A stretch of DNA of 64,000 bases from Spirochaetota bacterium (GTDB lineage: Bacteria; Spirochaetota; UBA4802; UBA5550). The translations under genes and the position numbers were made by a program. Below the pieces are notes generated by a model that did no database searches, was not told the DNA's origin, and was given only the letters and a program-made list of their open reading frames with translations. The number at the start of each line of letters is the position of its first letter. Position 1 is the stretch's first letter. Below, piece by piece: positions 1 through 9,428 of this stretch. The stretch spans positions 62,001-126,000 of the forward strand of contig JAGNKX010000008.1 of the NCBI GenBank assembly GCA_017999915.1. Direction: 5' to 3'.

Positions 1-1209
1 ATCACCATCCTCGGGAACATACCCGTATTCCAGGGACTCGCCGAGGCCGACTACGCGGAAATCATGCCGCTCCTGAAGCCGGAGAAATTCTCTCCCGGCG
101 CCCATATCATCAAGGAGGGCACCCACGGCGATTCGATGTGCATCATCGTCAACGGCGCGGTCAAGATAACCAAGACCGGCGGGGACGGCGAGGAGATACT
201 GCTGGACACCTTTTACGCCGGCTCCTATTTCGGCGAGTTTTCCCTGGTGGACAACATGCCCCGCTCGGCCAACGTCATCAGCCTGGAGGACACGGAGCTG
301 TTCCGCCTCGAGAAGAAAACCTTCGATTCGCTGCTGGCGAAGAACGGCTCCATATCGGCCGCCTTTTACCGGAACTGCCTGGAGGAGACCTTCTCCCGCT
401 TCAGGAACATCATCGCGAACTTCGCCTTCACGGAGCACACCCTCCGCCAGACCTCGACGAAGCTGGATGAGCTGGACCGCGATCTCTCCATGGCCAGGGA
501 GGTGCAGGGCTATTTCATCAACCGGGAGCTCCTCGACCACGAGCATTCCTTCCTGCCGGGGGTGCGGCATTCCTACGTGTACAAGCCGTGCATCGCCATC
601 GGGGGCGATTTCCTGAACGTGACGGAGCTCCGGCCCGGCCTGGCCGGGATTATCATAGCCGACGTCATGGGCCACGGCATCACCTCGGCCCTGGGCACCG
701 GCGTGCTCAAGAGCGCCTATTCCATCGCGGTGAGAGAGCTGGGACAGAGGCCGACGCAGCTCATGAAATACCTCAGCCGCCATTTCCTGAAGGTCATTCC
801 GGAGCTGTACGCCACCTGCTATTACGCCCTGGTGGACATGAAGAGGAAAAAGATCCAGCTCGCCAAGGGGGGCCATCCCCAGCCCCTGTTCTGGAAAAAC
901 CGGCGCAAGGGCTTCATCGACATCCAGTGCCAGGGCACGGGCCTCGGCCTGGTGAAGAAGGCCCGCTTCGGCAGGGTGGAGTACTCCATCGAGCGGGGCG
1001 ACAGGATCCTCTTCTATACCGACGGCATCATCGAGCAGAAGAACCCCCGGGGGGAGATGTACTCCGAGGGACGCCTCCGGAACATCTTCAGGGACCTGAT
1101 ACTCCGGAACGACGGCGATATCGTGAATAACCTTTTCAAGGACATGACATCCTTCGCCTCCCGCAAGGCGCTGGAGGACGACGTCACCCTGTTCCTCCTG
1201 GAGTTCTGA
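1..1209 (+). CDS. cNMP-binding / SpoIIE-type PP2C phosphatase (5' truncated)
   Basis: The reading frame is open from the first base, so the start lies upstream of the window; 402 residues are visible. Residues 1-115 form a Crp-like cyclic-nucleotide-binding fold (IIKEGTHGDSM, then FGEFSLVDNMPRSANV as the phosphate-binding cassette). A short coiled linker (TSTKLDELDRDLSMAREVQ) follows, then a SpoIIE/PP2C phosphatase with the metal-binding motifs IGGDFL, DVMGHG, YTDGI and EDDVTLFLLEF. Proteins of this architecture are expected to dephosphorylate a STAS anti-sigma antagonist in response to a nucleotide or related ligand. No STAS or anti-sigma gene is visible alongside it. The ligand is unknown; the PR-S-A part of the cassette suggests that nucleotide binding is retained. 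Confidence 0.9.
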   Translation: MTILGNIPVFQGLAEADYAEIMPLLKPEKFSPGAHIIKEGTHGDSMCIIVNGAVKITKTGGDGEEILLDTFYAGSYFGEFSLVDNMPRSANVISLEDTELFRLEKKTFDSLLAKNGSISAAFYRNCLEETFSRFRNIIANFAFTEHTLRQTSTKLDELDRDLSMAREVQGYFINRELLDHEHSFLPGVRHSYVYKPCIAIGGDFLNVTELRPGLAGIIIADVMGHGITSALGTGVLKSAYSIAVRELGQRPTQLMKYLSRHFLKVIPELYATCYYALVDMKRKKIQLAKGGHPQPLFWKNRRKGFIDIQCQGTGLGLVKKARFGRVEYSIERGDRILFYTDGIIEQKNPRGEMYSEGRLRNIFRDLILRNDGDIVNNLFKDMTSFASRKALEDDVTLFLLEF

Positions 1210-1358
1210 GGCGATCCTTCACGGTTAAACCCGGCCGTTCCCGCCCTGGCCATCAATCACTCTCTTCGGCCGCCTCTCATCACCGGAAAAACCGTCCGTT
1301 TCCGCCAATAGTTATGCTTTCATCCGCTTTTTTATCGCCAAAAATCTTAAAAACACAA

Positions 1359-1390
1359 GCCGTTCATTCTCCGGGAGTGGCCGTTCATTC
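1359..1390 (+). promoter_or_regulatory. Direct repeat GCCGTTCATTC x2, possible activator site
   Basis: The same 11 bases occur at 1359-1369 and 1380-1390, a centre-to-centre distance of 21 bases, or two helical turns. The second copy ends 8 bases before a TTGACA (1399-1404). That geometry is typical of an activator dimer or AraC-type protein bound next to a -35 element. The function is inferred from geometry only. Confidence 0.35.
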
Positions 1391-1398
1391 CGTGCCCA

Positions 1399-1426
1399 TT
1401 GACAGGGGTGTATAACTTTATATCTT
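1399..1426 (+). promoter_or_regulatory. Putative sigma-70 promoter for the lipoprotein cluster
   Basis: TTGACA (1399-1404) is followed after 16 bases by TATCTT (1421-1426). It lies about 200 bases before the first lipoprotein start at 1626, which implies a long leader. The -10 match is only moderate. Confidence 0.35.
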
Positions 1427-1625
1427 TTTATAAGAAACACTGAGAGCATACAATACACAATTCGGCATGCTACGTCGCGGTCGGGCATTACTGATTCCTA
1501 CCGTGGCAATATGGACCCCCGGGAGGGCGAAGTCCTGATTGGCTTCTTCCGGACAGGTCATGTCTCATAGGGGCAAAAAAGCAAAAGGGGCGCAAAAACC
1601 GGATTTTTTTGGAGGATTCATTGAA

Positions 1626-3080
1626 ATGAAAAATTTGTTCAAGCCCGCGGCCTGCTGCCTGTTAATGGCGGCGATGTTGGCCTCCACTGCCTGCGAGAAC
1701 ATTGAGAAAAAGAAGGACAATAAAAGACTGCTTCCACTCCTTCTGCTGGGCTCCGTAACGGAGACAAGCTGGTACACGTTCATCGGCGGGAGCGGCAATG
1801 ACTATGCGAACTCTATTATGCAGACCGCCGACGGCGGGTACATAATTGCCGGCAATGCAACCAAAGACATTGCGTCCATGGGAGGGAAGACGCCGATCAA
1901 CCCGTATTCTGAGGGCTTTGATATGATCGTAGTGAAGCTCGATTTCAGAGGCGCTGTAGCCTGGCACACCTTCCTCGGAGAGAGCAGCTTTGAATTTGCC
2001 AGTTCCGTGACCCAGACCGCCGACGGCGGGTACATCGTCGCCGGTTCCGCTCTGGGAAATATCCCGTCCATGGGAGGCAAGACGCCGGTCAACGCCTATT
2101 CCTCGGACTATGATATGGTCGTGGTGAAGCTCGATTCAAGGGGCGTCGTTGTCTGGTATACCTTCCTCGGCGGGAGCGGTATGGATCAAGCAAAATCAGT
2201 GGCGCAGACTCTCGACGGCGGATGCATCGTCGCCGGTTATGCAGACACAAATATCGCGTCCCTGGGAGGGAAGTCGCCGATTATGGCGTATTCCTCAAAC
2301 TCTGACATGGTCGTGGTGAAGCTCGATCCAAGCGGCGCCGTCGCCTGGTACACCTTCCTCGGCGGGAGCGGTTATGACCAGGCCTGCTCAGTGGCGCAGA
2401 CCAAAGATGGAGGGTATATCGTGGCAGGTTATGCGGGCGCAAATATCGCGTCCATGGGAGGGGCAGCGCCGATCAACGCGTATTCCTCGGGCATTGATAT
2501 GGTCGTGGTGAAGCTCGATTCAAGCGGCGCCGTCGCCTGGTACGCCTTCCTCGGCGGGAGCAGTGATGACCAGGCCTACTCCGTGGCGCAGACCAAAGAT
2601 GGCGGGTACATCGTCGCCGGTTCCGCATATGCAAACATTGCGTCCATGGGAGGGAAGGCGCCGGTCCGCGCCTATTCCTCAGGTGAGGATATGGTCGTGG
2701 TGAAGCTCGATTCCAGTGGCGCCGTCGCCTGGTATACCTTCCTCGGCGGGAGCGATATTGATAGAGCCAATTCCGTTGCCCAGACAATCGACGGCGGGTA
2801 CATCGTCGCCGGTACAGCGAACCAGGATGTTATTACCGGAAAAAACGATATGTCGGTGGTAAAGCTCGATTCAAGGGGCTCCATAGCCTGGTCCACCCTC
2901 CTTGACGGGAGCGGCGCGAATACGGCCAGCTCCGTGGCGCAGACCGGTGACGGCGGGTACATCGTCGCCGGTTCCGCATACGCAAACGTCGCGTCCATCG
3001 GGGGCGCAACACCGGTCAACGCCTATTCCTCGAACAGCGATATGTTCGTGGTAAAATTGAAGAGCAACGGTTCGTTGTGA
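1626..3080 (+). CDS. Lipoprotein with seven tandem propeller-like repeats
   Basis: The start at 1626 is preferred over the in-frame ATG at 1539 because it has GGAGG ten bases upstream and begins directly with a lipoprotein signal (lipobox ASTAC). The 484-residue product has a charged and Leu-rich spacer (KKKDNKRLLPLLLLG) and then seven repeats. Each starts with a W-Y-T-F-L-G-G-S motif and contains DGGYIVAG and DMVVVKLDSSG. Six units are about 64 residues and unit 6 is about 53. Seven WxxFLGG/DGGYIVAG blades suggest a closed seven-bladed beta-propeller of the delta-60/SBBP type. It is probably anchored in the outer membrane. Ligand and role are unknown. It leads a row of three lipoprotein genes with very similar leaders. 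Confidence 0.85.
   Translation: MKNLFKPAACCLLMAAMLASTACENIEKKKDNKRLLPLLLLGSVTETSWYTFIGGSGNDYANSIMQTADGGYIIAGNATKDIASMGGKTPINPYSEGFDMIVVKLDFRGAVAWHTFLGESSFEFASSVTQTADGGYIVAGSALGNIPSMGGKTPVNAYSSDYDMVVVKLDSRGVVVWYTFLGGSGMDQAKSVAQTLDGGCIVAGYADTNIASLGGKSPIMAYSSNSDMVVVKLDPSGAVAWYTFLGGSGYDQACSVAQTKDGGYIVAGYAGANIASMGGAAPINAYSSGIDMVVVKLDSSGAVAWYAFLGGSSDDQAYSVAQTKDGGYIVAGSAYANIASMGGKAPVRAYSSGEDMVVVKLDSSGAVAWYTFLGGSDIDRANSVAQTIDGGYIVAGTANQDVITGKNDMSVVKLDSRGSIAWSTLLDGSGANTASSVAQTGDGGYIVAGSAYANVASIGGATPVNAYSSNSDMFVVKLKSNGSL
1770..3077 (+). repeat. Seven coding tandem repeats of about 192 bases
   Basis: In-frame repeat units begin at the Trp codon at 1770 and recur about every 192 bases to the end of the gene. 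DNA identity between central units is high; phrases such as the one encoding VVVKLDSSGAVAW recur nearly unchanged. This points to recent internal duplication or gene conversion. The sixth unit is about 11 codons shorter. Confidence 0.8.
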
Positions 3081-3150
3081 CCGGGGGGCTGAGATATATT
3101 GAAGATTCGTATTGTCAGAGGGGCGCATAATACATTCCGGGGATATTAAA

Positions 3151-4089
3151 ATGAAAAATCTGCTTAAAACTATGGCATATTTCCTGCTGACGGCGGCGGT
3201 TTTGGCCTTCACGGCCTGCGAGATCAGTGAAAAAAAGGACAATAACTTGCTGCTCATGTTGCTCCTGGGGGGCGCCAATGGCGGAGATACCGTTGTAAAC
3301 ATCGCCGCCATACCCGGCGTGGTAGCGCCGGCTTATAGCGGGACACCAGTGACAACGATCACCGAGACAGACCAGTACACGGGAACAGTTGCGTGGAATC
3401 CTTCGGACAGTGCATTTGCCGCGACAACAGTCTACACCGCGACCATAACGCTGACACCCAAACCGGGATACAAAATAACCGGTGTGATTGCGGACTTCTT
3501 TACCGTAGCAGGAGCAACGAGCGTTACGAACAGCGCCGGCTCAGGGGTGGTAACCGCGGCATTTCCGGTGACGGACTGGGCGGTATATAATCTACGTGAC
3601 ACCGGTCCTGCCGGCGGGCTGATATTTTACATCAATCCCAATGCTTCGACTGATGGTTGGAAATACCTTGAAGCTGCTCCTGTCTCAACAGAATGGACAG
3701 AAAAAGTTTGGGGCGGTTATGGAACTGCGGTAACTGGTGCAGATGGGACTGCTATCGGAACAGGAAAACAAAATACAATAGATATAGTTTCTCAGTTTGG
3801 AGCGCAAGAGCCATACGAAAGCAAAACAGACTATGCGGCAAAACTTTGCAGTGATCTTGTAAGCGGGGGCTATGAGGACTGGTTTCTTCCATCAAAAGAT
3901 GAATTGAATTTGATGTACACCAATTTAAAAGCGTACGAGGTTGGTAATTTTGGGAACAGCTATTATTGGAGTTCGTCTGAGGGCGACCATCTCAGCGCGT
4001 GGTACCAGTTTTTCTTAAATGGCGCCCCGAACTCCTACTATAAGTACCTCGTCTCCAACAAACGGGTTCGGGCTGTCCGGTCGTTTTAA
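3151..4089 (+). CDS. DUF1566 (Lcl-like) lipoprotein, first paralogue
   Basis: The start at 3151 is chosen over 3112 because it begins with a lipoprotein signal (lipobox AFTAC) behind a GGGGA element. The 312-residue product has a spacer KKDNNLLLMLLLGG, then a beta-sandwich-like segment of about 95 residues (IPGVVAPAYSGTPVTTITET, YTATITLTPKPGYK, TVAGATSVTNS). The C-terminal DUF1566/Lcl domain starts with DTGPAGGLIFY, contains DWFLPSKDELNLMY and YYWSSSE, and ends in RVRAVRSF. DUF1566 domains occur on many spirochaetal surface lipoproteins and resemble C-type lectin-like folds; binding to host or matrix is possible but not shown. Same domain order and length as the next gene. Confidence 0.85.
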   Translation: MKNLLKTMAYFLLTAAVLAFTACEISEKKDNNLLLMLLLGGANGGDTVVNIAAIPGVVAPAYSGTPVTTITETDQYTGTVAWNPSDSAFAATTVYTATITLTPKPGYKITGVIADFFTVAGATSVTNSAGSGVVTAAFPVTDWAVYNLRDTGPAGGLIFYINPNASTDGWKYLEAAPVSTEWTEKVWGGYGTAVTGADGTAIGTGKQNTIDIVSQFGAQEPYESKTDYAAKLCSDLVSGGYEDWFLPSKDELNLMYTNLKAYEVGNFGNSYYWSSSEGDHLSAWYQFFLNGAPNSYYKYLVSNKRVRAVRSF

Positions 4090-4122
4090 CAATCATTGGA
4101 AAAATATTTTTTGGGGATAATC

Positions 4123-5061
4123 ATGAAAAACACCAGACGAATACTGGGATGCATGCTGATTACGGCATCGCTGGCCTTTACGGCCTGCGAGACGGGGAAG
4201 AAAGATGATAACAGCTCGCTTCTGTTGTTGCTTTTGAGCGGTGGTGGCAAAGCCGTTATTAATATAGCCTCAATACCCGGCGTCACACCGCCGGTTCTCG
4301 GAGAGATTCCGGTGACATCGATAACTGAAACCGCCCAGTACACCGGGACGGTTACGTGGGATGGCGGCTGGGCATGGTCGGCGAGATTTGGCGGCGATAA
4401 GGCCTACATGGCAACCATCACGCTCACTGCTAAAACGGGATATACCCTCACGGGTGTGACCGCGAACTTTTTCACGGTTGCGGGGGCATCATCGGTAACA
4501 AATTCGGATGATTCAGGAGTGATAACCGCAGTATTTCCCGCGACAGCATCAGTTGGAAATATAGGAGATTCCGCATTGGGAGGTAAAGTAGGATATATTC
4601 TGCAAAGCAGTGACACGGGATATGTCGCGGGAGAACAGCGGGGCCTCATAGCGGCGACCGAAGACCAGAGCACAGGAGTAGAATGGATATCCGGAGGATC
4701 AACTCAATCCACCTTAGTGCCGGGCGGTACCGGCACCGCCCTCGGGACAGGTACTGCAAACACGGATCGAATTATTGCCCAGGCGGTGGCGGCAGGCAAT
4801 ACTACTCCGACATCATACGCGGCAGGCCTTGCCCGGGCCTATAACGCCGGAGGGTACACCGACTGGTATCTTCCATCAAAAGATGAGTTGAGCAAGTTAT
4901 GCACTAATAGAGTGTCGATTGGTGGTTTCGCTAGTGCCTGGTATTGGAGCTCGTCTGAGGCCGGCACTGCTTACATCGCGTGGTCCCAGTATTTCGGCGG
5001 GGGGACCATGGGCGGCGCCAAGTTCGGTTCGTGGAGAGTTCGGGCTGTACGGGCTTTTTAA
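4123..5061 (+). CDS. DUF1566 (Lcl-like) lipoprotein, second paralogue
   Basis: The start at 4123 has GGGGA seven bases upstream and begins a lipoprotein signal (lipobox AFTAC); the in-frame ATG at 4096 would spoil the signal peptide. The product has 312 residues, exactly the length of its neighbour, with the same spacer, the same beta-sandwich segment (IPGVTPPVLGEIPVTSITET, LTAKTGYTLTGVTANFF) and a C-terminal DUF1566 domain (TDWYLPSKDELSKL, WYWSSSE, WRVRAVRAF). The middle of the domain differs: this copy has the GGKVGYILQSSDTGYVAGEQ opening where the first has AGGLIFY. It is a tandem duplicate that has diverged mainly in the putative binding domain. Confidence 0.85.
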   Translation: MKNTRRILGCMLITASLAFTACETGKKDDNSSLLLLLLSGGGKAVINIASIPGVTPPVLGEIPVTSITETAQYTGTVTWDGGWAWSARFGGDKAYMATITLTAKTGYTLTGVTANFFTVAGASSVTNSDDSGVITAVFPATASVGNIGDSALGGKVGYILQSSDTGYVAGEQRGLIAATEDQSTGVEWISGGSTQSTLVPGGTGTALGTGTANTDRIIAQAVAAGNTTPTSYAAGLARAYNAGGYTDWYLPSKDELSKLCTNRVSIGGFASAWYWSSSEAGTAYIAWSQYFGGGTMGGAKFGSWRVRAVRAF

Positions 5062-5240
5062 CAGTTTAACTATATAACAATTCAAGAGGGGGTTACCGGG
5101 ACAGCTCCTCACCACCAAAATTAGACTACTACCCAATTGCTCAGATAATGCAAATAAATTGATTGATTCATGAGGCTCTTTTCATTATTCTAGTCCGCAC
5201 TATTCAGTATCCGCAAGATACGAATATTCTCTGGAATGCT

Positions 5241-8123
5241 ATGAATTCATACCGCCGGGCCGTAATAAAGGGAATAGTGTTGTCCATTATCTGCTGCGGT
5301 GCGCTGCTTATAACCGCATGCGGGCGCAGCTTTGCATCCGGCAAAACACCGGTCGCGGTCAACGGCGTCATCGATCTGACGGAATGGGACTTTGAAAAAC
5401 AGGGGACCGTCAAGCTGAACGGGAGCTGGGAGTTCTACTGGAACCGGCTCCTTGAGCCAAAGGATTTCGCGCAGCCGCTCCTTCCGGCAAAGACAGGGTA
5501 TTTCACTATGCCGGGGTCCTGGAACGATTATGAGACAGGCCATGAAAAGATCCCGGGACAGGGGTACGGCACCTTCAGACTGACCGTCAGGCTCGGGAAC
5601 AGGGACGGGATCTACGGGTTAAAGACCCTTCACATGGCCACCGCCTACAGGATGTGGGTGGACGGCGCCCTCCTGTCGTCCAACGGAACGGTCGGCACGT
5701 CCCGCGACGCCATGGTCCCCCAATACCTGCCTAAAATTTCGATGTTCAGGCCAAAGGGCGCCACCGTCCCGATCGTGCTCCAGGTTTCCAATTTTTATCA
5801 CCGAAAGGGAGGCCCCTGGGAGGTCATTGAATTCGGCACCGCTGACCAGATCATTGAAAAACGCGAAAGCCGCAGCCACTTCGAGCTGTTCATTTTCGGC
5901 GCGCTGCTGATCATGGCGGTATATCATTTTGCGCTGTATCTTTTCAGGACAAAGGACAAATCGCCGCTCTATTTCGGCATCGTCTGCCTTGCCGTTGTGG
6001 GGCGCCTGGTCGTGACGGGGGAGCGTTTTTTCATTTCACTGTTCCCCTCAATCAACTGGGAAGTCGCGCTCAAGACAGAGTATATATGCTTTTACCTGTT
6101 CATGCCCCTGTTCATGATGTATTTTGAAAGGCTGTTCCCCGGGGAGTTTTCGAAACCGCTGCTGCGGATCTCCCAGTGGCTGGGGGCGGCATTCATACTC
6201 TTCGTGATCGTGACGCCGGCGTCGGTCTATTCATACTCAACACAGCCATATCAGGTCATCACCATCGCTTTCGGATTGTACCTGCATTACATCACCATCC
6301 GGGCGATCATGAAAAAACGGGAAGGCGCCATCCTGGTTATGGTCAGCGGAGAAATATTTTTCATCACGGCTATCAACGATTTTTTCGTGGCAAATGAATT
6401 CTACTATGCGATCAATCTGGTGCCCCTGGGGCTCCTGGTTTTTATCACCTCCCAGTCCATCATCCTTTCCAGGAGATTTTCCAGCGCTTTTTCCACCGTG
6501 GAGACCCAATCGGAACAGCTGAAAATCAACGAGGAGGAGCTCTGGGAAAAAAACGTGGCCCTGGAAAACAGCGACAGGATCAAGGACATGTTCCTGGCCA
6601 ATACCTCCCACGAGCTGCGCACCCCCCTGCACGGGATGATAGGCCTTTCCGAATCGATGCTGGAAGGCTCCGCCGGCGCGCTTCCCCCGAAGGCCGTTGA
6701 AAACCTTTCGCTCATCGCCTCGAGCGGCCACCGCCTGGCGGGCATGGTCAACGACCTGCTCGACATGGCGAAGATCCAGGACGAGGGCCTTTCGCTGAAC
6801 CTGCGGCCCCTGGACCTCCGCTCCCTGGGCGAAATGGTGGTGAGGCTTTCCCTTCCCCTGGCCGGCGTGAAGCCCCTGGAGATCATTAATGGCATCAGGC
6901 CGGACCTGCCGGCGGTGCAGGCCGACGAGGACCGGATACGGCAGGTGCTGCACAATCTCGTGGGCAACGCGATCAAGTTCACGAACGAGGGAAGGATAGA
7001 ATTGTCCGCCCGCGTCATGGACCGGCCCGACGGAGAGGGCGATGAAAGCGGCTGGCCGATGATCGAGGTGGCCGTGTCTGACACCGGCATCGGCGTCCCG
7101 GAGGAGTACAGGAAGAAGATATTCGAGGCCTACCAGCAGGTCGACGGGGGCGACGCCCGGGCCTATGCCGGCACCGGCCTGGGCCTGGCCATAGCGAAGC
7201 GGATCGTGGAGCTCCACGGCGGCGCGATCCGGGTGGAGCCCAACCCGGGCGGGGGCTCGGTGTTCTCCTTCACCCTGCCGGCGCTGCACGGCGTTGCAAT
7301 GGATAATCCGGGGCCGGTCGTCATCGAGGGTATGAGCGAGGCGCCGGGCGACGGCGCGGCCGGCCCGGCTCCGCTGTCCGGGGAAACCGACGGCGGAGCC
7401 TTCGAAAACAACCCGGTCCTCCTCGTGGTCGACGACGACCCGGTGAACGTGCGGGTCCTCCAGACCTATTTCGAGTCGAAGCGATGCACGGTGAAAACCG
7501 CGATGGACGGGATCAGCGCCCTCGATCTCATCGACCGTGACGATACCATCGAGCTCGTGCTCCTCGACATAATGATGCCGGTCATGTCCGGGTACGAGGT
7601 GTGCCGGAGGATACGCGCAACCCGGTCGGCGGAGCGGCTCCCGGTGGTGATGCTCACGGCAAAGAACATGATGGCGGACATAGACGCAGCTTTCGAGGCC
7701 GGGGCCAACGATTACATCGTGAAGCCCTTCCGCATCAGCGAGCTCCACGCGCGCGTGGGCACCATGCTGAAGCTGCGGAACGTCAGGAAGACCGCGGCCT
7801 CCGGCCTCACCATCCGTGACCGGAACAGGGCCTATTCCATCGCCTTCAGCGATATCATCTATATCACGTCGTCCGCCAAGAATATCGTGATCCACACCGG
7901 GGTGGAGGACATCGAGGTGCCGCTCCTCATGAAGGAGATAAGCGAGCGCCTCCCGCCGGACCTGTTCATCAGGATCCACAAGAGCCACATCATCAACAGG
8001 GCCTATATTCACAGCATATCCCACGTCCAGTACGGCCGCTACCGCCTGCGCCTCAGGGACAATGACGATACGGAGCTCCCGGTGGGCCGGGCCTACGCCG
8101 AATCCCTGCTGAAAAAAGCATAG
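5241..8123 (+). CDS. 7TMR-DISM hybrid histidine kinase with REC and LytTR domains
   Basis: The start at 5241 is chosen over 5163 because it opens a signal sequence ending in LITAC, a possible lipobox. The 960-residue product contains, in order: a jelly-roll-like 7TMR-DISMED2 sensor (about 45-195), a seven-helix 7TM-DISM segment (about 215-420), a HisKA domain with the phosphoacceptor His457 in NTSHELRTP, an ATPase domain (HNLVGNAIKFTNEG, DTGIGVP, GTGLGLAIAK), a receiver with Asp776 in LLDIMMP, and a C-terminal LytTR DNA-binding domain (IIYITSSAKN to ELPVGRAY). Sensor, kinase, receiver and DNA-binding output in one membrane-embedded chain is unusual. It would have to regulate from the membrane or be released by proteolysis. 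No target is evident. Confidence 0.92.
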   Translation: MNSYRRAVIKGIVLSIICCGALLITACGRSFASGKTPVAVNGVIDLTEWDFEKQGTVKLNGSWEFYWNRLLEPKDFAQPLLPAKTGYFTMPGSWNDYETGHEKIPGQGYGTFRLTVRLGNRDGIYGLKTLHMATAYRMWVDGALLSSNGTVGTSRDAMVPQYLPKISMFRPKGATVPIVLQVSNFYHRKGGPWEVIEFGTADQIIEKRESRSHFELFIFGALLIMAVYHFALYLFRTKDKSPLYFGIVCLAVVGRLVVTGERFFISLFPSINWEVALKTEYICFYLFMPLFMMYFERLFPGEFSKPLLRISQWLGAAFILFVIVTPASVYSYSTQPYQVITIAFGLYLHYITIRAIMKKREGAILVMVSGEIFFITAINDFFVANEFYYAINLVPLGLLVFITSQSIILSRRFSSAFSTVETQSEQLKINEEELWEKNVALENSDRIKDMFLANTSHELRTPLHGMIGLSESMLEGSAGALPPKAVENLSLIASSGHRLAGMVNDLLDMAKIQDEGLSLNLRPLDLRSLGEMVVRLSLPLAGVKPLEIINGIRPDLPAVQADEDRIRQVLHNLVGNAIKFTNEGRIELSARVMDRPDGEGDESGWPMIEVAVSDTGIGVPEEYRKKIFEAYQQVDGGDARAYAGTGLGLAIAKRIVELHGGAIRVEPNPGGGSVFSFTLPALHGVAMDNPGPVVIEGMSEAPGDGAAGPAPLSGETDGGAFENNPVLLVVDDDPVNVRVLQTYFESKRCTVKTAMDGISALDLIDRDDTIELVLLDIMMPVMSGYEVCRRIRATRSAERLPVVMLTAKNMMADIDAAFEAGANDYIVKPFRISELHARVGTMLKLRNVRKTAASGLTIRDRNRAYSIAFSDIIYITSSAKNIVIHTGVEDIEVPLLMKEISERLPPDLFIRIHKSHIINRAYIHSISHVQYGRYRLRLRDNDDTELPVGRAYAESLLKKA

Positions 8124-8216
8124 AATCTTTTTTGTCATCCCTCCGGCCAATTCAGTTGACAAGGGCGGAATTCCACCCACAGTGGGATGGAAATTAACTG
8201 TTGCCTGGAGTGTCCA

Positions 8217-9428
8217 ATGAAAAAAGCCGTTTTCGCCCTGCTGATCCTTTGCACCGCCTGCTCACGGTGGGACGATAGCATAAAGGTGCAGGACTCCGAT
8301 CTTTCCTACTTTAAGAACAATTACCGCGACTGCAGGATGAACTTCCTGGCCCACGCCCAGAAAGCCGCGGCCCGCTATGATTTCGCCGTGCGGGGGGCCT
8401 ATGCCGTGCCGTCCGCCACGGACAGGGACCTGGTGATGGATTACCTCTACGTGCCGGCGACGAAAAGGCAGGAAAAGCTCCTGATCATTACCGCCGGGGT
8501 CCACGGCATAGAAGGATACGCCGGCAACGCGGTGCTGGACCTCTTCTTCAAGGAGGTGTTCCCCACACTTGACATGGACACCATGGGCGTTGTCGTGTTT
8601 CACGCCGTTAATCCCTACGGCATGAAGCACTTCGGGCGCTGCACCGAGGGGAACGTTGACCTGAACAGGAACTGCAGCGCGGACCCGAAGGTGTACAATG
8701 CGAAAAACGCCGGGTACGAAAAGATGCGCTCCCTCCTGGAGCCCGGGGGAAAGGCGTCGGCGGGATTTATCTCCGACGCGATCCTCACCCTCAAGCTGGT
8801 GTGGTATAACCTGACCATGAGCAAAAAGGATTTCATGGATGGCGTCGTCAGCGGCCAGTACCAGTCCCCGAAGGGGATCTTCTACGGCGGCAAGAAACAG
8901 GAGCCCCAGATAGCGGAGATGACCAGGATCCTCTCCTCCATCATGGCGCGGTACCGCTTCGCGGCCCATATCGACCTCCACAGCGGCTACGGAAAGCGCG
9001 GCTATCTTCATCTCTTCCTGACGTCGCTGGATGACAGGAAGAACAAGGTCCTGGCATCTCTTTTTCCCGGCCATCCCATAGACTGGTCGACGGACAAGGA
9101 TTTTTACCAGAACACCGGCGATCTGAGCTATTATCTTTACTCCCTGGTCCGGGGTACTCCGGTACTTCCCATCACCTTTGAATTCGGGACCCTGGACAGC
9201 CAGACCATGATGGGCGGCATGAAGTCGCTCAAGACGTTCATCCTCAGCAATCAGGGGGCCCGGAACGGGTACGCAAGCGACGACGACCGCCGGGCCATCC
9301 GGACAATGGTGACGGAGATGTTCTATCCGGAATCGCCTGCCTGGAGATCGGAGGTGATCCGCCAGTCCCGGGAGCTCTTCGGGAAATTCTTCAAGCAGTG
9401 GAGCCGGCTGCAGAGAAAGGATTTATAA
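8217..9428 (+). CDS. DUF2817 / M14-like metallopeptidase lipoprotein
   Basis: The start at 8217 has GGAG seven bases upstream and opens a lipoprotein signal (LLILCTAC); the ATG at 8187 does not. The 403-residue product has zinc-carboxypeptidase-like features: HGIEGYAGN as the first zinc motif, NPYGMKHFGR and NVDLNRN near the substrate site, HIDLHSGYGKRG as the third ligand region, and Glu in ITFEFGTLDS as a plausible catalytic residue. DUF2817 proteins are M14-type hydrolases of unknown substrate. An exported peptidase or amidase acting on cell-wall or imported peptides is likely. It stands alone between the LytTR hybrid kinase and a terminator. Confidence 0.82.
   Translation: MKKAVFALLILCTACSRWDDSIKVQDSDLSYFKNNYRDCRMNFLAHAQKAAARYDFAVRGAYAVPSATDRDLVMDYLYVPATKRQEKLLIITAGVHGIEGYAGNAVLDLFFKEVFPTLDMDTMGVVVFHAVNPYGMKHFGRCTEGNVDLNRNCSADPKVYNAKNAGYEKMRSLLEPGGKASAGFISDAILTLKLVWYNLTMSKKDFMDGVVSGQYQSPKGIFYGGKKQEPQIAEMTRILSSIMARYRFAAHIDLHSGYGKRGYLHLFLTSLDDRKNKVLASLFPGHPIDWSTDKDFYQNTGDLSYYLYSLVRGTPVLPITFEFGTLDSQTMMGGMKSLKTFILSNQGARNGYASDDDRRAIRTMVTEMFYPESPAWRSEVIRQSRELFGKFFKQWSRLQRKDL

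Follow-up and report, generated by a model that had tools for sequence, protein, structure and literature searches.

A one-chain membrane two-component system of Spirochaetota and a candidate LytTR operator beside surface-lipoprotein genes

Here we report that a 960-residue hybrid kinase encoded in 64 kb of contig JAGNKX010000008.1 from a Spirochaetota bacterium (the window, meaning that whole stretch of DNA) belongs to a family of proteins that carry a sensor, a kinase, a receiver and a LytTR DNA-binding domain in a single chain, and that a pair of direct repeats with the geometry of a LytTR operator recurs at the loci of this family. On the evidence of sequence, the protein is probably a two-component system in a single chain, anchored in the membrane, which would bind this operator and thereby switch the surface-lipoprotein genes nearby, together with a few distant sites. 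The protein itself had been singled out in an earlier note on this DNA; the operator and the lipoprotein genes, which that note overlooked, are the informative part.

A family of one-chain kinases

The kinase gene and the domains of its product are laid out as follows.

5241-8123, + strand: one-chain hybrid kinase of 960 amino acids (translation, Pfam, hydropathy, alignment, structure model)
5241-5321, + strand: signal peptide and lipobox, LITA-C27 (hydropathy; Cys27 invariant in 19 of 19 sequences)
5322-5840, + strand: extracytoplasmic sensor domain, residues 28-200, predicted GH2-like jelly roll (model and PDB comparison)
5880-6473, + strand: 7TMR-DISM seven-helix membrane domain, residues 214-411 (Pfam PF07695, 97.6 bits)
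6582-6782, + strand: HisKA, residues 448-514, phospho-acceptor His457 (Pfam, 60.9 bits)
6924-7283, + strand: HATPase_c, residues 562-681 (Pfam, 99.0 bits)
7422-7757, + strand: receiver (REC; Response_reg), residues 728-839, Asp776 (Pfam, 102.4 bits)
7827-8114, + strand: LytTR DNA-binding domain, residues 863-958, contact motif FIRIHKS (Pfam, 77.3 bits)

The earlier note had described a complete two-component system in one chain, and domain order, catalytic residues and conservation support that description. The frame translates to 960 residues and a stop codon, and the 7TMR-DISM, HisKA, HATPase, receiver and LytTR domains follow one another in the order given there, every Pfam match exceeding its curated cut-off (for LytTR, 77.3 bits against 22.6). 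Hydropathy places a signal peptide at residues 7-25 and seven membrane segments at 216-409. The full-chain AlphaFold model has the seven 7TMR helices and the same domain order as Pfam; with a mean predicted local distance difference test score (pLDDT) of 73 and a predicted template modelling score (pTM) of 0.43, it is usable for domains and not for packing. The longest open reading frame is opened by TTG 5163, and ATG 5241 yields a canonical signal peptide.

Genes with this fused 7TMR-DISM/HisKA/HATPase/REC/LytTR layout, which we call clade A, were found by a family search that the earlier note had proposed. Our sample comprised 392 genomes of the window's phylum, and among the matches listed, from which weak fused LytTR genes may be missing, there are 20 such genes in 12 genomes, all of them in the window's order (four genes each in G013 and G199; two each in G000 and G010; one each in G003, G005, G009, G017, G079, G144, G213 and G222). 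They score 157-215 bits against 123 for the next match, their LytTR domains form one clade (support 100/98), and the 18 proteins aligned with the window protein are 46-51% identical to it. We rejected the idea that the window gene is a frame-fusion artefact, since 18 other intact genes have the same layout. The G003 gene (L044:8457-11425) has a frame break near the HisKA/HATPase border that leaves frames of 548 and 434 amino acids; its locus still has the operator and lipoproteins, and the break may be a real split, decay or an assembly error.

Conservation was read from an alignment of 19 sequences, which includes the window protein and omits the broken G003 gene. Besides Cys27 of the LITAC lipobox, to which the earlier note had already pointed, the invariant residues are HisKA His457, HATPase N576, the ATP-site motifs DTGIG (614-618) and GxGLGL, receiver Asp776 and Lys828, and LytTR His913. 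Signal peptide, lipobox and invariant cysteine together make the window kinase a predicted lipoprotein; in the G013 copies the residues preceding the lipobox cysteine are not canonical. A residue comparison matches the contact motif FIRIHKS by position to FFRCHNS, the DNA-contacting motif of AgrA (PMC4227749). Nearly all copies keep the motif, with Arg replaced by Gln in G000:C18 and Ser by Gln in G010:C46, and the AgrA structure (3bs1) is a distant match to the window's LytTR domain (E 3e-7).

A separately made REC-LytTR part, named earlier as the finding that would count against a one-chain system, did not emerge from our searches. They returned no promoter-like site on the + strand of 5150-8400 and, in the HATPase-REC linkers of the 19 kinases, no conserved internal start preceded by a convincing ribosome site; the best Shine-Dalgarno sequence in these linkers has 5/6 matches in one kinase and at most 4/6 in the others.

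The same chassis is put to other uses. A second fused lineage (clade B) with a DISMED2 ectodomain is present in G014, G079, G187 and G193, and sister proteins (L047, L048, L049, L051, L052, L046) share the lipobox-7TMR-HisKA-HATPase-REC arrangement with LytTR replaced by a SpoIIE phosphatase, by a second LytS-type kinase whose gene has a distinct REC-LytTR gene behind it, or by an AraC domain (G009, L046). Twenty high-scoring sister-kinase loci without LytTR served as our control set. Two proteins of 1570-1588 amino acids (L173:579-5345, L174:8867-13579) join a Ser/Thr kinase, AAA_16 and a C-terminal LytTR domain, to our knowledge an unusual combination. Because one of the 43 LytTR matches listed from seven genomes of other lineages lies in a frame of more than 900 amino acids (G395, a weak match), the fused layout may exist outside the window's order. 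LytTR matches occur in at least 95 of the 392 phylum genomes sampled; AtcR of Treponema denticola has been called the only LytTR protein in spirochetes (PMC12070737, 2025).

A recurrent candidate operator

The element was first seen on reading the gaps behind the kinases, as a tandem repeat ahead of lipoprotein promoters. Its form in the window is as follows.

1357-1390, + strand: proposed LytTR operator, repeats GCCGTTCAT at 1359-1367 and 1380-1388, period 21 bp (pair of position weight matrix matches)
1399-1426, + strand: promoter, TTGACA (1399-1404), 16 bp, TATCTT (1421-1426), the top promoter-like site of 1200-8400

Two 9-bp direct repeats are thus separated by 12 bp, and the -35 box begins 10 bp past the second. 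The exact pattern has one match in the 64-kb window and none in 100 shuffles. Published LytTR sites consist of 9-bp direct repeats about 12 bp apart with a strong bias to 10 bp before the -35 box (PMC6193735, PMC11347149), and 1359-1388 with its -35 at 1399 fits the description of paired 9-bp direct repeats at 10-13 bp spacing upstream of -35.

When a half-site position weight matrix (PWM) was scanned as pairs, with the period free from 19 to 23 and a threshold of 16 bits, 17 fused-kinase loci (310 kb) gave 22 pairs, 21 of them at exactly 21 bp. The 20 sister loci (382 kb) gave none, 20 random stretches (391 kb) gave one, and a Markov simulation gave one. Of the 20 clade A kinases, 19 have the operator in their loci; G010:C46 lacks it, and its genome has a site elsewhere. 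It starts 1-7 bp behind the kinase stop codon in 12 of 20 cases and 1-74 bp behind it in 14, and the -35 box begins exactly 10 bp past the second repeat in 20 of 27 sites, 11 bp past it in four and elsewhere in three. Loci of the DISMED2 lineage, which lay outside the first training set, contain three operator sites, before lipoprotein genes. At L163:8375-8430, three successive half-sites in 21-bp steps stand ahead of a TTGACA, divergent from the kinase gene. To the eye, the kinase promoters of L035, L038, L039, L041 and L166 look leaderless: TTGACA is followed after some 17 bp by a -10-like box, the end of which is only some 6 bp from the ATG.

Genome-wide, the operator keeps company with the fused kinases. 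The exact pattern has 12 matches in 46 genomes of the order, and all eight genomes concerned have a fused LytTR kinase (8 of 15 genomes with such a kinase among the matches listed, 0 of 31 without; p = 2.5e-5). The matrix backs 11 of the 12; the match in G213:C15, at a locus without PWM support, was treated as chance. This distribution bears on a different explanation, under which a LytTR response regulator encoded apart from the kinase occupies the operator, the fused domain is vestigial or acts on other sites, and the neighbourhood reflects shared ancestry. Candidates for such a role exist: four LytTR domains pass the cut-off in the window's genome, and while two are in fused chains (the window's, on C8, and another on C18), the other two are ordinary REC-LytTR regulators adjoining LytS-like kinases, and some sister kinases built on this chassis rely on an adjacent REC-LytTR gene. 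Many of the 31 genomes that have neither fused kinase nor operator match do, however, have stand-alone REC-LytTR proteins; the fused LytTR domains form a tight clade in which the contact motif is kept in nearly all copies; and the operator follows closely on the kinase gene itself in most loci. We regard a separate regulator as improbable, and favour binding by the fused kinase.

Some copies of the operator lie far from any kinase gene. Both operators of the window's genome are nearly duplicated, at C6:285960 for the C8 form and, with one mismatch, at C13:69181 for the C18 form, from which it appears that the two kinases may be kept apart by operator differences. The C13 site precedes a possible outer-membrane protein (without a Pfam match, its function being guessed from sequence) and four lipoproteins, PKD domains being present in one or more of them; the G199:C16 site precedes a relative of this C13 protein, the likeness being judged by eye, and the G010:C229 site precedes two lipoproteins. 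Because operator copies precede genes so far from the kinases, some control at distant sites is likely.

Lipoprotein genes beside the kinases

Four genes flank the kinase in the window as proposed or possible members of the unit behind the operator.

1539-3080, + strand: first of the proposed targets, a lipoprotein gene probably starting at ATG 1626, which follows GGAGG (lipobox STAC)
3112-4089, + strand: lipoprotein with an Lcl_C-like C-terminus (33.6 bits, cut-off 34.9), proposed target (lipobox FTAC)
4096-5061, + strand: lipoprotein with Lcl_C (PF07603, 42.4 bits), proposed target (lipobox FTAC)
8187-9428, + strand: DUF2817 (PF10994) putative lipoprotein, possible last gene of the same unit (lipobox-like CTAC)

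The three lipoprotein genes, the kinase gene and the DUF2817 gene follow the operator in that order on the + strand, with gaps of 31, 6, 179 and 63 bp. No terminator-like site was found on the + strand between 5061 and 5241, and the kinase may belong to its own regulon through read-through. Immediately upstream of the lipoprotein unit, 64-1209 encodes a protein with cyclic-nucleotide-binding and SpoIIE phosphatase domains.

Across the family, lipoprotein genes are enriched among the neighbours. Counting two genes on either side of each kinase, with other kinases excluded and lipoproteins of at least 150 amino acids admitted, 19 of 66 genes beside the 20 kinases are predicted lipoproteins, against 3 of 78 beside the 20 sister kinases (in 2 of 20 loci; p = 3.6e-5) and 16 of 341 in random stretches (p = 4.7e-8). 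A lipoprotein neighbour is present at 12 of the 20 kinase loci by a strict rule and at 14 by a relaxed one; at L164, a contig end cuts one lipoprotein and leaves it below the length limit. The folds of these neighbours vary, and include InlB-like and Listeria-Bacteroides repeats, DUF285, PKD, FN3, NHL, DUF5122, MACPF, TIG, FG-GAP, Big_2 and Lcl_C. On G013:C17, four kinases alternate with large lipoproteins.

Several observations weigh against a regulator of neighbouring lipoprotein genes acting through this operator. For six of the 20 kinases, not even the relaxed rule calls a lipoprotein among the two genes on either side, and the rule itself is home-made rather than SignalP. The gene behind the operator encodes a membrane protein resembling guanylate/adenylate cyclases in G213 and G222 (L167:192-2030, L169:1323-3065), and in G079:C86 it has no assigned identity. 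The window's own site is the lowest-scoring of the clade A set (16.4 bits, or 17.8 with G000 left out) and, unlike those of most clade A loci, lies 3.9 kb upstream of the kinase, while G000, G010 and G199 hold four sites in all that have no kinase nearby. The relatives are not independent of one another, G013 and G199 contributing four kinases each. Finally, the 14 sites that trained the first PWM were picked by eye from these same loci, and the test was therefore repeated with each genome left out in turn and the period free from 15 to 27: in every one of the 23 site-bearing loci the operator came top, with a period of 21 bp each time. As relatives of the left-out genome remain in the training set, this shows consistency rather than independence.

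The position of the operator just behind so many kinase genes allows a further and more tentative suggestion, which we hold with less than even confidence: kinase and operator may form a portable cassette, in which the operator is joined to the 3' end of the gene and controls whichever surface gene lands downstream. Unrelated adhesin-like lipoproteins (InlB, PKD, FN3, Ig-like, TIG, FG-GAP, beta-propeller, MACPF and Lcl_C) would then be placed under private environmental switches, each a tethered and self-contained sensor, in up to four tandem kinase-lipoprotein pairs (G013), with the tether favouring the neighbouring promoter.

Proposed mechanism

The ectodomain of the window kinase (residues 28-213) has no Pfam match, DISMED1/2 included. 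Its model, built from 19 sequences, has a pLDDT of 84.6, and among PDB structures it comes closest to the sugar-binding jelly roll at the N-terminus of GH2 beta-glucuronidases (E ~3e-7, TM-score ~0.5 on the query). Because of this resemblance, a glycan-like ligand is a reasonable guess, and no more.

We propose that the lipidated jelly-roll domain, seated on the 7TMR-DISM bundle, would sense an extracellular ligand, perhaps a glycan, and that sensing would switch the HisKA/HATPase kinase. Phosphate would pass to the receiver within the protein or its dimer, and receiver phosphorylation would free or pair the C-terminal LytTR domains, relieving an inhibition of DNA binding by analogy with Bacteroides proteins (PMC11253607). 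A kinase dimer would offer two LytTR domains for the two 9-bp repeats, which at a period of 21 bp would share a face of the DNA at a distance of two helical turns, ending 10 bp before -35, and the bound domains would recruit RNA polymerase. In the window, the operator at 1357-1390 would drive the three lipoprotein genes, and read-through may bring the kinase under its control as well.

Because the repeats sit upstream of the -35 box, their position suggests activation rather than repression. Were the element instead a repressor site or some other promoter feature, the kinase would turn the lipoproteins off, and CoxC, a membrane-bound LytTR protein, is indeed a repressor (PMC11347149). The CoxC site overlaps -35, however, whereas the present repeats stop 10 bp short of it on the upstream side, a position described for LytTR activators, and we think repression unlikely.

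The earlier note had supposed that the LytTR domain would either bind promoters at the membrane or be released by proteolysis. In the latter case regulator and operator would be as we propose, and a protease would free REC-LytTR as a soluble factor. The 35-residue HATPase-REC linker (residues 684-718) is predicted to be disordered in the full-chain model, and a freed factor would easily reach the sites that lie far from any kinase gene. Yet the alignment of 19 kinases reveals no conserved cleavage motif or linker sequence, a tethered factor would fit the close linkage between operator and kinase gene, and hybrid two-component systems (HTCS), ChiS and CoxC act from the membrane (PMC11253607, PMC11856585, PMC11347149). 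Release by a protease therefore seems doubtful to us; by analogy with these three systems, the LytTR domain would work while tethered, and membrane-bound DNA binding by a LytTR protein or a hybrid kinase, having such precedents, would not in itself be unusual.

Comparison with known systems

HTCS of the Bacteroides type carry a periplasmic Reg_prop/Y_Y_Y sensor; a Pfam search of the window kinase finds neither domain, and 7TMR-DISM occupies that position. The two have in common a membrane sensor kinase, a receiver and a DNA-binding domain in one chain, encoded next to the genes thought to be controlled (PMC11253607). The HTCS output is an AraC-type HTH_18 domain and its targets are polysaccharide-utilisation genes, whereas the window kinase has the LytTR beta-fold, no HTH_18 match in Pfam, a 7TMR-DISM sensor, a lipobox and, as proposed targets, surface lipoproteins. 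ChiS of Vibrio cholerae is likewise a membrane-anchored hybrid kinase that binds promoters directly, and ChiS-type domains also occur with 7TMR-DISM; its DNA-binding domain is unrelated and its operator different (PMC8092284, PMC11856585).

Closer in output is CoxC, an MHYT-LytTR protein that binds direct repeats, as shown with membrane fractions; it differs in having neither kinase nor receiver, and in repressing through three repeats that overlap -35 (PMC11347149). Pairs of LytS and LytTR proteins such as BtsS/BtsR (PMC10653868), and HdrRM (PMC6193735), share the 9-bp direct repeats about 12 bp apart and about 10 bp before -35, and BtsS is a 7TM receptor, in which it resembles the seven-helix sensor described here (PMC10653868). 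In these systems the regulator is separate and soluble, or paired with an inhibitory membrane protein, rather than part of one chain.

Hybrid transmembrane transcription regulators, for which Y_Y_Y is named, combine HisKA, HATPase and response_reg in a transmembrane DNA-binding protein, and Spirochaetota figure there among the groups rich in transmembrane regulators; the part of that survey available describes neither a 7TMR-DISM/HisKA/REC/LytTR protein nor an operator or target (PMC10269533). Our search of the open-access literature, with subscription papers outside its scope, found no description of this family or its operator.

One-chain membrane regulators are thus already known, and the layout alone is a variant of them; what this family would add is a defined operator, a class of targets and a model open to test. 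The way in which a tethered domain locates its promoter has been described as unclear (PMC11856585). With 20 kinases and 20 nearby sites of strict geometry, most of them beside the kinase gene, and with a few further sites at other places in the genome, the family makes local versus distant action directly testable, and it suggests how environmental spirochaetes control large surface lipoproteins.

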